Shown piece by piece: positions 1,307 through 44,625 of a stretch of 44,625 bases of DNA. The notes below the pieces were generated by a model. The model was given only the letters and a program-made list of their open reading frames with translations, ran no database searches and was not told the origin of the DNA. The stretch is taken from positions 1-44,625 of the IMG/VR virus record IMGVR_UViG_3300037246_000745. The stretch is one strand, 5' to 3'. The position numbers and the translations under genes were made by a program. The stretch comes from a virus. Each line of letters opens with the position of its first letter. Position 1 is the first letter of the stretch.

Positions 1307-3499
1307 ATGCGAATATTGATCGCCAGCAACGCTCCGTGGACGAAGACCGGATACGGTGTTCAGGGGGCTTCGCTTGCTCGCAGATTGCGTGACGACGGCC
1401 ACAAGGTCGTCTATCACTGTAACTACGGACTTCGAGGCGGAGTGCAGGAGTGGGAAGGCATTCAGTGCCTCCCGTCTGCGCAAGACAACGGCTACACCGA
1501 TCTGATCCTCCAGTCCCACATCCGATACGCGGAACCAGACTTGCTGATCTCTATTCATGATCTCTGGCCGTGGCAAGGGCTCGAACTTCCGCAGAGGCTC
1601 AACGAACAGCGCAAGGTGGCGTGGGCCGCATGGACGCCAGTCGACCATTCACCGCTGAGTGACGCGAACGCCGACGTACTCTCGAGAGTCGATTACCCGA
1701 TCGCGATGAGCCAGCACGGTCAGCAGATGATGGCGGACAAAGGCTTCGCTTCCACGCTGATCCCGCATGGGGTGGAGAAGGCGTACGGGTACACCGCGAA
1801 TGGTCGACGTGAGTTCCGCAGACTGAATCTGATCCCCGAAGACGCGTTCCTGTTCGGCACCGTGGGTATCAACTATGGCGTACCGAACCGCAAGGGCACT
1901 GAACGTCTCATGGAGGCCCTCGCGAAGGTTGAGGGATATCTCTACATCCACGGCTCACCCATCCCCATGTCAGGGGCCGGATTAGACTTGATGGAAGTGG
2001 CAAAGTTCTACGGTGTCGAGGATCGTGTCCGATTCGCTGACCCGTACAACTACGTGATGGGCTACTCCCAGAACGGCATGAACGCCCTCTACTCAGCGCT
2101 GGACTGCTACGTGCAGCCGACGATGGGTGAGGGTTTCGGCATTCCCGTGATCGAGGCGCAGGCATGCGGCGCCATCGTGATCGCCACCGACTCTACATCG
2201 ATGCCTGAACTGCTGTGTCCTGACGCATCGCAGCTCGTCGAGGCGATCGACTACCTCGTACCGGATCTCGCACACCGTCAAATCATCCTGCATGAGCCGC
2301 TGGTGGCGGCAATGAAGGAGGTGATCCAACTCAAGGCTGACGACCCGACAGGATTCCGGGGGATGAAAGCCCGGGTCGGTCTTCATGCCAATATCTACGA
2401 CTGGGACACAATTTGGGAAGAGGCATGGAAGCCCTTCCTGGCTGAAGTTGAGACAGAGATTGAGTCCACTGTACGTAACACATGGCATCGCGGGCAGGGG
2501 GTCGTGCAAGTACGCGACCACGACGTGATGAAACGCGATTCCACGCTCAAGAGCCCCGCGGTACAGAAGGAGCTCGACATGCTCCATCGCGTACGCGGGA
2601 ACATGGGCGTGATTCCCATCCTCGAGCACGGTGAGGACGAAGAGGGCAGGACTTGGTTTACCATGCCTCGCCTGACGCCGCTGTTTGAGGCAGAGATCGA
2701 AGACGTGGACCTGTTCATCGATAAGCTCCGAATAGCGCTCGTCACACTGCACGAACAGGGAATTGCTCACCGTGATGTGCACCCTTCGAACGTCATGGTG
2801 GGGAGTAACGAAACGCCGTACCTGATCGATTTCGAGTGGGCCTCGTCCTGTGACGGGGAGATCGGCGTGAACTGCGTTGATTTCGAGCCCTGGGCGGCCC
2901 TGAACCACGCTGTGCCGTCCGTACAGCTTGGAGTGGACGAACGGGGCCTTCACACCGTCATCAACTACCTGAGAGGGCTCCCACTGTCTGAGAAGACACA
3001 CGGCTACAAAGGCGTCCCGTACCAGCAGATCGACGGGGTGGGCGAACGCGACTGTCAACTGCGCTGGGATCTGATGGAGCCAGATGTTGAGGGCAAGGAC
3101 GTGCTCGACATCGGCTGCAATTTGGGATGGTTCGTACGCAAATCTCTTGACGAAGGAGCAGCGCACGCAGAAGGCGTGGACAATGACCGCGCTGTCGTCA
3201 AAACGGCAACCCAATTAGGGCGTGGAGCGTTTTATTACGTGGACATCGACGCCAACTTGAACTCCGATCGGTCTCCGTTCGACGTGATCTTCTGCCTCTC
3301 CGTCCTTCAACATCTGAAATCTCCAGACCTCACTTTTCAATGGATGCTCGATCACGGCAAAGTGCTCTACATCGAGATCCCACAGCGCTCGATTACGTCA
3401 CTGATGGCTGAGCACCTCCAGAACGCCGACTTGCTGGGCGAATCCGAGCGTGGCCGCCCGATTTACCGGTTGAAGGTACGAGAGGCGGTGCCCGCGTGA
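1307..3499 (+). CDS. Glycosyltransferase (GT4) - kinase-like - methyltransferase fusion
   Basis: This 730-residue protein shows three enzymatic modules. Residues 1-380 are a GT-B glycosyltransferase of family 4 type: a Gly-rich N-terminal strand (MRILIASNAPWTKTGYG) and the nucleotide-sugar motif EGFGIPVIE at 275-283. Residues 395-535 resemble a protein kinase or aminoglycoside-phosphotransferase fold with the catalytic set intact: K409 (VMK), E422, HRD at 488-490, N495 and D508 in DFE. Residues 585-725 are a Rossmann SAM methyltransferase with motif I VLDIGCNLGWF (599-609), an acidic residue near 625 and FDVIFCLSVLQHL at 658-670. ATG 1307 is chosen because an in-frame upstream start at 1253 lies inside the hairpin and has no ribosome binding site. 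The gene lies among virion genes, so the sugar may go onto capsid or tail proteins, or onto host surface polymers. The substrate is unknown. Confidence 0.85.
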   Translation: MRILIASNAPWTKTGYGVQGASLARRLRDDGHKVVYHCNYGLRGGVQEWEGIQCLPSAQDNGYTDLILQSHIRYAEPDLLISIHDLWPWQGLELPQRLNEQRKVAWAAWTPVDHSPLSDANADVLSRVDYPIAMSQHGQQMMADKGFASTLIPHGVEKAYGYTANGRREFRRLNLIPEDAFLFGTVGINYGVPNRKGTERLMEALAKVEGYLYIHGSPIPMSGAGLDLMEVAKFYGVEDRVRFADPYNYVMGYSQNGMNALYSALDCYVQPTMGEGFGIPVIEAQACGAIVIATDSTSMPELLCPDASQLVEAIDYLVPDLAHRQIILHEPLVAAMKEVIQLKADDPTGFRGMKARVGLHANIYDWDTIWEEAWKPFLAEVETEIESTVRNTWHRGQGVVQVRDHDVMKRDSTLKSPAVQKELDMLHRVRGNMGVIPILEHGEDEEGRTWFTMPRLTPLFEAEIEDVDLFIDKLRIALVTLHEQGIAHRDVHPSNVMVGSNETPYLIDFEWASSCDGEIGVNCVDFEPWAALNHAVPSVQLGVDERGLHTVINYLRGLPLSEKTHGYKGVPYQQIDGVGERDCQLRWDLMEPDVEGKDVLDIGCNLGWFVRKSLDEGAAHAEGVDNDRAVVKTATQLGRGAFYYVDIDANLNSDRSPFDVIFCLSVLQHLKSPDLTFQWMLDHGKVLYIEIPQRSITSLMAEHLQNADLLGESERGRPIYRLKVREAVPA

Positions 3500-3948
3500 G
3501 GCTCATCACCGATCCCGAAGAACGGAACTTCGACCCGCTGCACCCGCTGATCAAAGATGCCAACGAGGTGACACCGGTTTTCACCATGATCACGCACGGG
3601 CGTAGAGCACTGGGTGAGGACTGGAACAAGGTCACCATTGGGCACGACGCCGACGAGATGACGCTGGAGATTGAGCCGGCTGAGGCCCCTGTTGGGGGCA
3701 AGCCGATTGTCGTAGTCCACGAGGGCGAGGTGGAGATGATCGACTACATCATCACCGCTGCTCGAGAGAAGGCCGCGGCACGTGCCGCGCAACCCGCGGA
3801 ACTGACCAGGCAAGAGCGATACGAAGCTGTGAACGCTGCGTGGCAGGACTACATGGCGAACAAATTGCGATGGATGCAGGGCGTATCGACGATGGGGGCC
3901 GGAGGGCTCATTCAACGTGAACGAACCCAGTTTAGGGATAACCAATGA
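3496..3948 (+). CDS. Hypothetical protein in head/tail gene block
   Basis: This 150-residue protein starts at GTG 3496, overlapping the stop of the fusion gene by GTGA, so it is probably translationally coupled to it. The middle is acidic, and the C-terminal third is basic and helical, with an Ala/Arg/Gln-rich helix around residues 85-115. No known motif, membrane segment or signal peptide is visible. Position suggests a small virion or assembly protein; I do not recognise it. Confidence 0.7.
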   Translation: MRLITDPEERNFDPLHPLIKDANEVTPVFTMITHGRRALGEDWNKVTIGHDADEMTLEIEPAEAPVGGKPIVVVHEGEVEMIDYIITAAREKAAARAAQPAELTRQERYEAVNAAWQDYMANKLRWMQGVSTMGAGGLIQRERTQFRDNQ

Positions 3949-5005: not shown

Positions 5006-6994
5006 ATGATCCGCCGCCATCGACAACTGCACCGGCATGGACCGATGGTGCCGCGTCAGCGTGTGTACCGTCGCGGCGTGGCTGTGTGGACTACCAGTCG
5101 CTATCGGGCAGCCACAGATGACATCCCGGACATCTCAGGGAACCCAATTCACCCTGCACAGCTCGGCTCCACGAACAGCGGAGACACCAACGACCCCACC
5201 CTCCTCCCGTATGAGGGAGAACAGTACCTGTATCTGCCGGGGGGTAGTGGGAACTTTGCAAGCGCGCCTGATACTGCGGCCCTAAGTATTACCGGCGATC
5301 TAACACTCGCCGCATACATTGAGCCCGACGACTTCACTCCCGCTGCGTCGCAGATAATCATCGCTAAGTATGTTTCAGCGGGTGATGAGCGCGGTTATGA
5401 ATTTCTCCTCAACACTAACGGAACGCTTGCGCTGGGTATTTCCACGGATGGAACTTCCGGGAATACTACCTTCGACAATAGCTCTGAGACAATTCCTACG
5501 GTTCCGCAATGGGTCGCTACTCAACTGGATGTCAGCGAGACGGAATCTTCTTTCTGGACATCTACCGACCCTCGAAGCACGCCAATCGCTGACATTACGT
5601 GGGTTGAACTTGGGATCGCGAGCGTAACAGCGCCAGCGAGCATATTTGATAATGCACAATTACTGGAGGTCGGATCGGCTCAAGCGGGCACGGGCGGCAA
5701 TTTTGTTGGGAAAATCTCTCGGGCGGTTGTACTCAGTGCATTGCGAACGGAGGCAAGTGCTTCGACAATTGAGTTCGACGCCGACTTCACCACCCAGCCC
5801 GTAGAGCCCTTTGCCACCTTCACTGAGGGCTCCAGCAACGCAGCCACCGTCACCATCAATCGCTCAGCCACTGGCCTCAAGAGCACGATGGTAGACCGCA
5901 CGATGTTCCTGCTGGGCACGGATGACTTCTTCGAGGTAGCGAACGAACCGAAGACTACGAATCTGGTGACGAATCCGCAGTTTGGGGTGGATACGACGGG
6001 CTGGACTACCAGCGGCACCAACACCATTGAACAGGTTGATCTTGCTACAGAGGGCATAACCACAGAAGGCTTGCCCTCTGGCGTAACGACAGCCCTGAAA
6101 TGCACATTTGTCGATAACAACACGATGGCAGGATTTGCGATTACGGTGACTGCTGCTGAACATTTTTTCTCAGGCCATGTGTTCATACCGACCGCGTATG
6201 ACGGTGAAATGCGTTGCACTGACGCAGGTACGTTTGCTGGTGCAACGGGAGCGCAGTCTGCGGATGCTAACTCGTCATTGAAAGACCAGTGGCAACGCAT
6301 CGATTTTGACATCACTGTCGTCGGCGGGGACTTGGCTGGACAGATGATTTGGACAGCCAACCAAGGCCCTCCCACTGCGGGTCGATTCCTGTATCTCACT
6401 GGCGAACAGATTGAACTTGCAGGCGCCGCCACCGACTTCGTATCTGGCGCTTCCCCTAACGGCTACTGGAACGGAACAGCACACGCTAGCACGAGTACAG
6501 AGCGTGCAGACCTTGACTTCGCACCAGATGACTCGTTGACGGTGGTGTACGCAGGGCGGACGTATGACAATTCGCCTGCATCCAATGAACATTTCATTGG
6601 CAAAAAGGACGCAGGCGGCGCACTAGCTGGCTGGGCTATTTATGTACGTTCATCTACAGAACGGGTGCGTGCCATCGTTGCAGACGGCACCAACTTGCCA
6701 ATCAATGAGCTGGATACTCAGTTGACAAATGGTGTGGCGTTCATAGTTGGCAATCGGCGAGATGTACTAGCGGACACCGTGCAGTCGTTTATCGATGGGG
6801 CAACCGATAAATCCCCGACGGTGGATTCGACTACGGCTACGCTTGCTAACGCATTTGCCCTGCGAATTGGCGCCGACGGTGATACGGCTCAATCGTTCAC
6901 AGACGGCGAATTCTACGCTGCTGCTCTATTCCATGAAGCATTGACTGATGAAGAGGTCCGACAGGTGGGCCTGGAACTAGTAGGGATCGGATGA
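5006..6994 (+). CDS. Tail fibre/receptor-binding protein with LamG-like modules
   Basis: This 662-residue protein starts at ATG 5006 behind AGGGAGA. Two regions, roughly 70-240 and 500-660, have the pattern of concanavalin-A/LamG-like jelly rolls: a segment such as FASAPDTAALSITGDLTLAAY, an IIIAKY strand, and near the C-terminus an ALFHEALTDEEVRQV ending. Between them a segment beginning NLVTNPQFGVDTTGWT looks like a CBM-type carbohydrate-binding module. Together these fit a virion protein that binds host surface glycans. The very basic N-terminal 30 residues are unusual and may anchor it to the virion. Confidence 0.7.
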   Translation: MIRRHRQLHRHGPMVPRQRVYRRGVAVWTTSRYRAATDDIPDISGNPIHPAQLGSTNSGDTNDPTLLPYEGEQYLYLPGGSGNFASAPDTAALSITGDLTLAAYIEPDDFTPAASQIIIAKYVSAGDERGYEFLLNTNGTLALGISTDGTSGNTTFDNSSETIPTVPQWVATQLDVSETESSFWTSTDPRSTPIADITWVELGIASVTAPASIFDNAQLLEVGSAQAGTGGNFVGKISRAVVLSALRTEASASTIEFDADFTTQPVEPFATFTEGSSNAATVTINRSATGLKSTMVDRTMFLLGTDDFFEVANEPKTTNLVTNPQFGVDTTGWTTSGTNTIEQVDLATEGITTEGLPSGVTTALKCTFVDNNTMAGFAITVTAAEHFFSGHVFIPTAYDGEMRCTDAGTFAGATGAQSADANSSLKDQWQRIDFDITVVGGDLAGQMIWTANQGPPTAGRFLYLTGEQIELAGAATDFVSGASPNGYWNGTAHASTSTERADLDFAPDDSLTVVYAGRTYDNSPASNEHFIGKKDAGGALAGWAIYVRSSTERVRAIVADGTNLPINELDTQLTNGVAFIVGNRRDVLADTVQSFIDGATDKSPTVDSTTATLANAFALRIGADGDTAQSFTDGEFYAAALFHEALTDEEVRQVGLELVGIG

Positions 6995-43637: not shown

Positions 43638-44537
43638 ATGGCTGGTGTCACAGGCACCGCACAGATCGACGACGCCGTTGAGAAGTTTCTAGCGGAATCC
43701 CGCTTCACGTTGCAGGAGCGCCCGGGTGTTGTTGCCCGGAGCATCCGTAACGAGACGCTTCCCACCGGTCAAGGTCCATCTGTCAACATTCCCAAGTACG
43801 GCACTGTGAACACGTTTGCGCTGACTGAAGGCGTGGACATGACGCAGGCCCAGCAGATCACCGACCAGGTGATGACCATTACCCCCGCCGAATTCGGCGC
43901 ACAGGTGGTGCTCACTGACCTGATGCTCGACCAGTCGAAGGATGAATTCTTCGCCGTGGCCGGCCGCATTCTCGGTGAATCGTTTGATCGCCAGCGTGAG
44001 CAGACGCTGGTTGACGACTTCGACGCGTATTCCGGCGTGATTGGGTCAGGCGGAACTTCGATGACCGCCGGTCACATCATGGCTGGCCGAGCATCGATCG
44101 CATACAACGGGCCGGCTGATAGCTCGGCTGGTCGTGGCGGCGAGCCCGCTCCTGGTCGTGTGTACTGCGTGCAGACGCCCGCAGGTTTCCACACGGTCAA
44201 GAAGGGCCTCAGTGGTGCTGTTAGCTCCGTTGGTGCGACAACGGCGGTTGCCCCGGGCACGATCCAGGGCTTCACGATGGAGTTCTCCATTGATGATGTG
44301 ACCTGCCGGTCCAGCATCAACATCAGCAAGGACTCCTCGGATGACGCGAAGGGCGGCCTCTTCTCGGAGGAAGCACAGATTCTCGTCAACCACGGTGGCG
44401 GACCGGGCGCAGAACGCGAACGCGACGCATCACTCAGGGCCTGGGAAGTCAACTTTGTTGGCCGCTGGGCGCGTGGTGAGTACGACGACGACTGGGGTCG
44501 AGAGATGATCTTCGACTCGGCGTTGCCGACCTCCTAA
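43638..44537 (+). CDS. Major capsid protein, complete copy
   Basis: It is 299 residues from ATG 43638. The N-terminus begins AGVTGTAQIDDAVEKFLAES, followed by beta-rich and helical segments compatible with a compact HK97 fold (N-arm, E-loop-like IPKYGTVNTFALTEGVDMTQ, long helix near 105-125). The place after the scaffold-like gene and before a decoration-type gene supports the call. The 3' 239 codons occur again, with four amino-acid changes, at the start of the window. Confidence 0.8.
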   Translation: MAGVTGTAQIDDAVEKFLAESRFTLQERPGVVARSIRNETLPTGQGPSVNIPKYGTVNTFALTEGVDMTQAQQITDQVMTITPAEFGAQVVLTDLMLDQSKDEFFAVAGRILGESFDRQREQTLVDDFDAYSGVIGSGGTSMTAGHIMAGRASIAYNGPADSSAGRGGEPAPGRVYCVQTPAGFHTVKKGLSGAVSSVGATTAVAPGTIQGFTMEFSIDDVTCRSSINISKDSSDDAKGGLFSEEAQILVNHGGGPGAERERDASLRAWEVNFVGRWARGEYDDDWGREMIFDSALPTS

Positions 44538-44625
44538 CGAATAGCAACCTGCAATCACGCCCGGGGAAGCGCCGGGGTGCGCCGATAGGTGGCAGGTGAA
44601 AGGGAATTGAGATGGGTTTCAACCC
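43819..44625. repeat. Terminal direct repeat, right copy (with 1-807)
   Basis: This is the partner of bases 1-807 with no gaps. Substitutions are confined to the capsid coding part, between 43946 and 44510. The identical stretches are 43819-43945 (127 nt) and 44511-44625 (115 nt). Confidence 0.9.
44612..44625 (+). CDS. First codons of the decoration-type gene (cut by window end)
   Basis: ATGGGTTTCAACCC matches the first 14 bases of the gene complete at 794-1237. It is the same gene reached again through the terminal repeat, not a second copy. Confidence 0.7.

Follow-up and report, generated by a model that had tools for sequence, protein, structure and literature searches.

A phage gene joining GT4 glycosyltransferase, kinase, and WbdD-related methyltransferase domains behind capsid genes, a candidate source of a methyl-phosphate-capped virion glycan

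Introduction

WbdD of Escherichia coli O9a phosphorylates the terminal mannose of the O-antigen and then methylates that phosphate (PMC3482155). Phosphate methylation is lost in mutants of Tyr16, His132, His133, and Arg203, the last of which reportedly belongs to the phosphate site and is missing from NodS and RebM; the WbdD of E. coli O8, which is without a kinase, methylates a sugar hydroxyl (PMC3482155). ORF6 of Klebsiella O7 combines glycosyltransferase modules with a methyl-phosphate-making methyltransferase-kinase in one polypeptide (PMC11231755).

Glycosylation of phage virions has been reported in a few mycobacteriophages, but little is known about the chemistry of these glycans. According to a passage in PMC12363180 that cites Freeman et al. 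2023, mycobacteriophage virions are glycosylated by phage-encoded glycosyltransferases. Cluster J mycobacteriophages have an island in which glycosyltransferases are accompanied by a kinase and by methyltransferases of unknown role (PMC3706429). Here, we describe a phage gene that encodes a GT4 glycosyltransferase, a kinase, and a WbdD-related methyltransferase as a single polypeptide.

A three-domain gene in a capsid-side cluster

The gene lies in a stretch of 44,625 nucleotides (IMG/VR record IMGVR_UViG_3300037246_000745; hereafter, the window) that represents a near-complete phage contig. The first 800 bases are 96% identical to positions 43,819–44,618 (31 mismatches in 800). Because the contig ends overlap in this way, the window has two slightly differing copies of the major capsid protein gene: a complete one homologous to phage capsid proteins (43,638–44,537, + strand) and a second, partial one at the beginning of the contig (15–719). 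The probable explanation is a circularly permuted genome whose assembly drew on a mixed population. In circular order, the capsid gene is followed by a gene for a decoration-type small protein (794–1,237, + strand), the fused gene (1,307–3,499, + strand), and further structural genes. The next gene downstream (3,496–3,948, + strand) overlaps the stop of the fused gene, and its homologue in another viral contig, L227, likewise comes right after the fused gene. Further along, positions 5,006–6,994 have a GC3 of 0.56 vs. about 0.72 in the neighboring genes, and may be a structural gene that was recently acquired.

The fused gene is one ATG-started frame of 730 amino acids with no internal stop. 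Pfam and PHROG matches place the GT4 domain at about residues 1–385, the kinase at about 400–516, and the methyltransferase at about 575–717, and GC3 differs little among them (0.72, 0.74, and 0.69, respectively). A preliminary description had claimed three modules in one 730-residue frame, and the uninterrupted reading frame and the domain assignments bear this out. The motifs that it quoted (EGFGIPVIE, VMK, HRD-N, DFE, and VLDIGCNLGWF) are all present in the sequence and exceed chance. An artifactual joining of separate genes during assembly, which that description had raised as a possible source of the long frame, is ruled out by three further contigs (L227, L148, and L147) that encode the same three-domain protein.

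Domains and active-site residues

The GT4 (GT-B) domain occupies residues 1–385 (1,307–2,461, + strand) and is recognized by Pfam (PF13692, E = 3e-14; PF00534, 1e-11) and by the PHROG 2170 glycosyltransferase profile (2.5e-30). The Glyco_trans_1_4 match is obtained with the whole protein (E = 3e-14), and the two Pfam scores of the GT4 families Glycos_transf_1 and Glyco_trans_1_4, 54.1 bits vs. 27 in one case and 45 vs. 26.4 in the other, both pass the curated cut-offs. The EX7E catalytic motif of GT4 enzymes is present as EGFGIPVIE (residues 275–283, with E275 and E283; 2,129–2,155, + strand) and is kept in L227 and L148; in L147, E275 is replaced by Lys. In the L147 gene (4,327–6,510 of that contig) the kinase catalytic loop and the methyltransferase are kept, but the GT4 domain has lost E275, the RK pair, and further conserved residues; thus, the three activities do not always persist as a set.

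The middle part (residues 386–560; 2,462–2,986, + strand) matches the Pfam kinase families Pkinase and APH (E = 1e-7 and 1e-6 on the fragment), PHROG 3297 kinase (9e-12), and the Kdo-kinase family. For Pkinase, the match falls just above the cut-off with the fragment and below it with the whole protein (1e-6). The catalytic loop HRDVHPSN (residues 488–495; 2,768–2,791, + strand) is followed by the metal-binding motif DFE, in place of DFG (residues 508–510; 2,828–2,836, + strand), and His488, Asp490, Asn495, and Asp508 are invariant in the four fused proteins. The full kinase-type catalytic set that had been read from the window stands in part: HRD-N and the DFE aspartate are conserved, but Glu422 is found in none of the three full-length relatives and Lys409, of the VMK motif at residues 407–409, only in L227. 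The domain also departs from eukaryotic-type protein kinases, in that HRD-N is present but DFE replaces DFG and only some 60 residues lie between DFE and the methyltransferase domain, a span too short for the usual activation segment and C-lobe.

Methyltransf_23 is detected in the C-terminal part (residues 565–730; 2,999–3,496, + strand) with E = 5e-10 on the fragment and, above the cut-off, with 7e-9 on the whole protein, indicating a class I S-adenosylmethionine (SAM) methyltransferase. Core residues of its SAM motif I, VLDIGCNLGWF (residues 599–609; 3,101–3,133, + strand), are invariant in the fused family. The fold of separate parts had been proposed as a check on the earlier reading. An AlphaFold model of the methyltransferase part (pLDDT 73) retrieves SAM methyltransferases in a fold search. 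For the kinase part, all 50 matches listed are kinases or kinase-containing proteins, although the model is of low confidence (pLDDT 58) and the underlying alignment included bacterial Ser/Thr kinases that may bias it, so we take this result as support rather than proof. The kinase-like reading of the middle region in the preliminary description thus stands. Two MAFFT alignments (A6 and A8) were left out of structure prediction, as their methyltransferase rows fell on the kinase region.

Comparison with WbdD and other known systems

In WbdD (E. coli O9a/Klebsiella O3; PDB 4azs and 4uw0), too, a class I methyltransferase shares its chain with a kinase from the same superfamily. WbdD is the top PDB match of the kinase-methyltransferase part of the window protein alone (E = 8e-6), and the best match of a profile of this part from four relatives against all PDB chains (E = 3e-19), in which the two domains are matched separately (2e-8 and 2e-7) and in swapped order. 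WbdD again comes first with a profile built from split-gene methyltransferases and the window sequence (4e-10), whereas the corresponding split-gene kinase profile, which also includes the window, places CK2 rather than WbdD at the top.

Residues were compared with a WbdD sequence taken from PDB-search alignments obtained with composite queries and a run of X. The segment YQQIDGVGERDCQLR (3,020–3,064, + strand) holds the counterparts of WbdD Tyr16, Arg31, Cys33, and Arg36. Tyr572, Arg581, Arg586, Asp625, His669, and Arg717 of the window correspond to Tyr16, Arg31, Arg36, Asp82, His133, and Arg203 of WbdD, respectively. Arg717 (3,455–3,457, + strand) has a counterpart in 11/11 aligned relatives. 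The phosphate-site trio of His132, His133, and Arg203 is incomplete in the window: at Gln668-His669 (3,308–3,313, + strand) His133 is kept and His132 is replaced, and all five fused proteins examined have Gln or Met at the latter position. Split-gene relatives (cluster J and contigs L123, L143, and L190) keep both histidines. We considered whether the WbdD-like arginine set is restricted to kinase-linked methyltransferases. This fails, as the set occurs in 16 of 91 related methyltransferases with no recognized kinase nearby, and it is therefore not exclusive to phosphate methylation.

The window protein differs from WbdD in several respects. It is fused to GT4, is encoded by a phage among capsid genes, has Gln for His132, and places the kinase before the methyltransferase, the reverse of the order in WbdD. 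It ends directly after the methyltransferase domain and so lacks the C-terminal coiled-coil ruler of chain length. Judging from sequence kinship, it may work like the catalytic pair of WbdD; given the reversed domain order and the missing coiled coil, we do not class it as a WbdD. Klebsiella O7 ORF6 resembles it in uniting glycosyltransferase modules with a methyltransferase-kinase, in its case one that makes methyl phosphate, but its GT2 modules are C-terminal, it has a coiled coil, its kinase is reported to be unlike that of WbdD, and it serves a bacterial O-antigen (PMC11231755).

In cluster J mycobacteriophages (Pound gp15–gp23 and Thibault gp11–gp19), homologues of the kinase and methyltransferase parts are encoded by adjoining genes that lie, together with glycosyltransferases, between the capsid and head-tail connector genes. 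The kinase homologues are annotated as Ser/Thr kinases. These islands differ from the window in that the genes are separate, the neighboring glycosyltransferases are not homologues of its GT4 domain, and both WbdD histidines are kept.

Fused and split relatives in other phages

None of 50,697 phage records has a match covering 80% of the 730-residue query, and a single-sequence scan of viral contigs with the whole protein gave no match. Full-length relatives were found with profiles only: L227 (746 amino acids, 52% identical), L148 (762, 35%), and L147 (728, 32%). The domain order, for which the preliminary description named no phage counterpart, is thus without a match of that coverage in these phage records but not unique to the window. 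A fourth related contig, L149, has a separate GT4 gene and a kinase-methyltransferase fusion.

Position is conserved as well, in agreement with the earlier placement of the gene in a virion cluster. A capsid-gene homologue lies shortly upstream of the fused gene in 3/3 contigs, and homologues of the decoration-type gene stand directly before it in L148 and L227 (two tandem copies in the latter). Among viral contigs with related GT4 genes, a decoration homologue precedes the GT4 gene in Microcystis phage Mae-JY09 and nine others. Tandem duplicates of decoration-type genes directly before a glycosyltransferase gene were seen at 423–1,334 of L227 and at 2,922–3,809 of L009.

In the phage records, the GT4 part resembles genes of Mae-JY09 and Pontimonas phage phiPsal1 (31–33% identical), where the gene lies close behind the capsid gene and, in Mae-JY09, also behind the decoration homologue, as in the window. 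In these phages GT4 is unfused, and GT2, epimerase, or methyltransferase have genes of their own. More generally, GT2, sugar-nucleotide epimerase, methyltransferase, and head-tail genes are among those that lie downstream of related GT4 genes in phages. The GT4 family is also fused to other partners, namely an FkbM methyltransferase (L008), GT2 (L017), and a methyltransferase plus GT2 (L028), so glycan-modifying domains have been joined to it more than once.

Split-gene relatives of the kinase and methyltransferase occur in capsid-side islands with several glycosyltransferases. For example, consecutive genes of a Gordonia-associated phage contig (L123) encode the kinase, the methyltransferase, two glycosyltransferase-like proteins, terminase, and portal. 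Whether fused or split, the kinase and methyltransferase remain linked, and in the window and its relatives the glycan genes lie among capsid and head-tail genes, the arrangement of a virion-glycosylation island.

A candidate route to a capped virion glycan

The fusion architecture is real and conserved, and most catalytic residues of the three domains are retained. We propose that this single polypeptide carries out three successive steps that equip a virion protein with a methyl-phosphate-capped glycan, a reading to which we assign a probability of about one half. The GT4 domain would transfer a sugar from a nucleotide-sugar donor to an acceptor. The likeliest acceptor is a virion protein encoded next door (decoration-type or major capsid), either at a site of the protein itself or at its first sugar. 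The kinase would then use ATP to phosphorylate a hydroxyl on that sugar, and the WbdD-related methyltransferase would move a methyl group from SAM to the phosphate, rather than to a sugar hydroxyl, so that the particle would bear a glycan capped with methyl phosphate. As a mechanism this is specific and plausible. The earlier suggestion of sugar addition, phosphorylation of the sugar or its carrier, and methylation is strengthened by the kinship with WbdD and by the split pairs in capsid-side glycosyltransferase islands. That the modification is on the virion is suggested by gene order and by analogy with the glycosylated virions of mycobacteriophages. Only tentatively would we go on to propose a capsid or decoration protein bearing such a glycan through the action of a single phage polypeptide, with O-antigen capping chemistry occurring in phages in both fused and split form.

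An unlikely alternative is that the kinase and methyltransferase act on different positions, one phosphorylating the sugar and the other O-methylating a hydroxyl, so that the product is not a methyl phosphate. The replacement of His132 by Gln or Met in the fused family is consistent with this, as are the occurrence of the methyltransferase family without a recognized kinase and the hydroxyl methylation by the kinase-less O8 WbdD (PMC3482155). Retention of Arg203, a phosphate-site residue absent from NodS and RebM, in every aligned relative argues against it, as does the persistent linkage of the two domains. We consider it rather more doubtful still that the target is a host surface glycan (a cell wall or envelope polymer), modified for instance to block superinfection. 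Phage glycosyltransferases that alter host receptors are known, and the substrate of WbdD is itself a polysaccharide of the bacterial surface (PMC3482155), but in the window, L227, and L148 the gene lies between capsid or decoration genes and further structural genes. Also against a host target, PHROG and Pfam scans of the window, which did not reach every small ORF, found no partner for O-antigen conversion.

The Pkinase matches, the many matches to Ser/Thr kinases, and the annotation of the cluster J homologues would fit a protein kinase with virion or host proteins as its substrates, the fusion only tethering it to virion-modifying enzymes. We regard this as improbable given DFE for DFG, the short span before the methyltransferase domain, the matches to the APH and Kdo-kinase families, and the linkage to glycosyltransferases and a WbdD-like methyltransferase. 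There is a very slight chance that one or more fused domains are catalytically dead in the window phage and serve as a scaffold. The degenerate GT4 of L147 and the loss of the HRD loop from kinase-like parts of L170 and L171 speak for this, but EX7E, HRD-N, the metal-binding Asp, and the SAM motifs are intact in both the window and L227. DNA hypermodification was dropped, since this is not a P-loop kinase and family scans, which did not take in every small ORF, revealed no base-modification partner.

From the three-step reading follows a definite chemical prediction for a set of phages, namely methyl phosphate. For the kinase and methyltransferase genes of cultured cluster J mycobacteriophages, to which the 2013 description assigned no role, the reading supplies a hypothetical function and thereby makes the question directly testable in laboratory phages of Mycobacterium smegmatis.

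Other domain combinations

Several further arrangements of the methyltransferase were encountered in viral contigs. In L171 (4,426–6,456) and L170 (5,242–6,552) it follows a kinase-like domain that has a DFG-like Asp and no HRD loop, and the N-terminus of L171 has a possible GT-A (GT8-like) domain (weak, E = 0.04). Phage ORFs in L245 (3,895–5,232), L250 (6,581–7,897), and L231 (6,581–7,639) combine a kinase-like region with a related methyltransferase and have no GT4. The same kind of methyltransferase is fused to an apparent P-loop kinase, judged by motif, in L150 (3,375–4,406), L169 (5,491–6,597), and L192 (5,416–6,528), and to a ParB-like domain with a DGHHR motif in L182 (5,404–6,504), L185 (5,458–6,561), and L199 (503–1,552). 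In L143 an HNH homing-endonuclease gene (1,888–2,481) lies between the kinase and methyltransferase genes, and in Synechococcus phage S-CBWM1 (L088, 4,743–5,621) a PknB-like kinase gene is inverted within the head-gene cluster.
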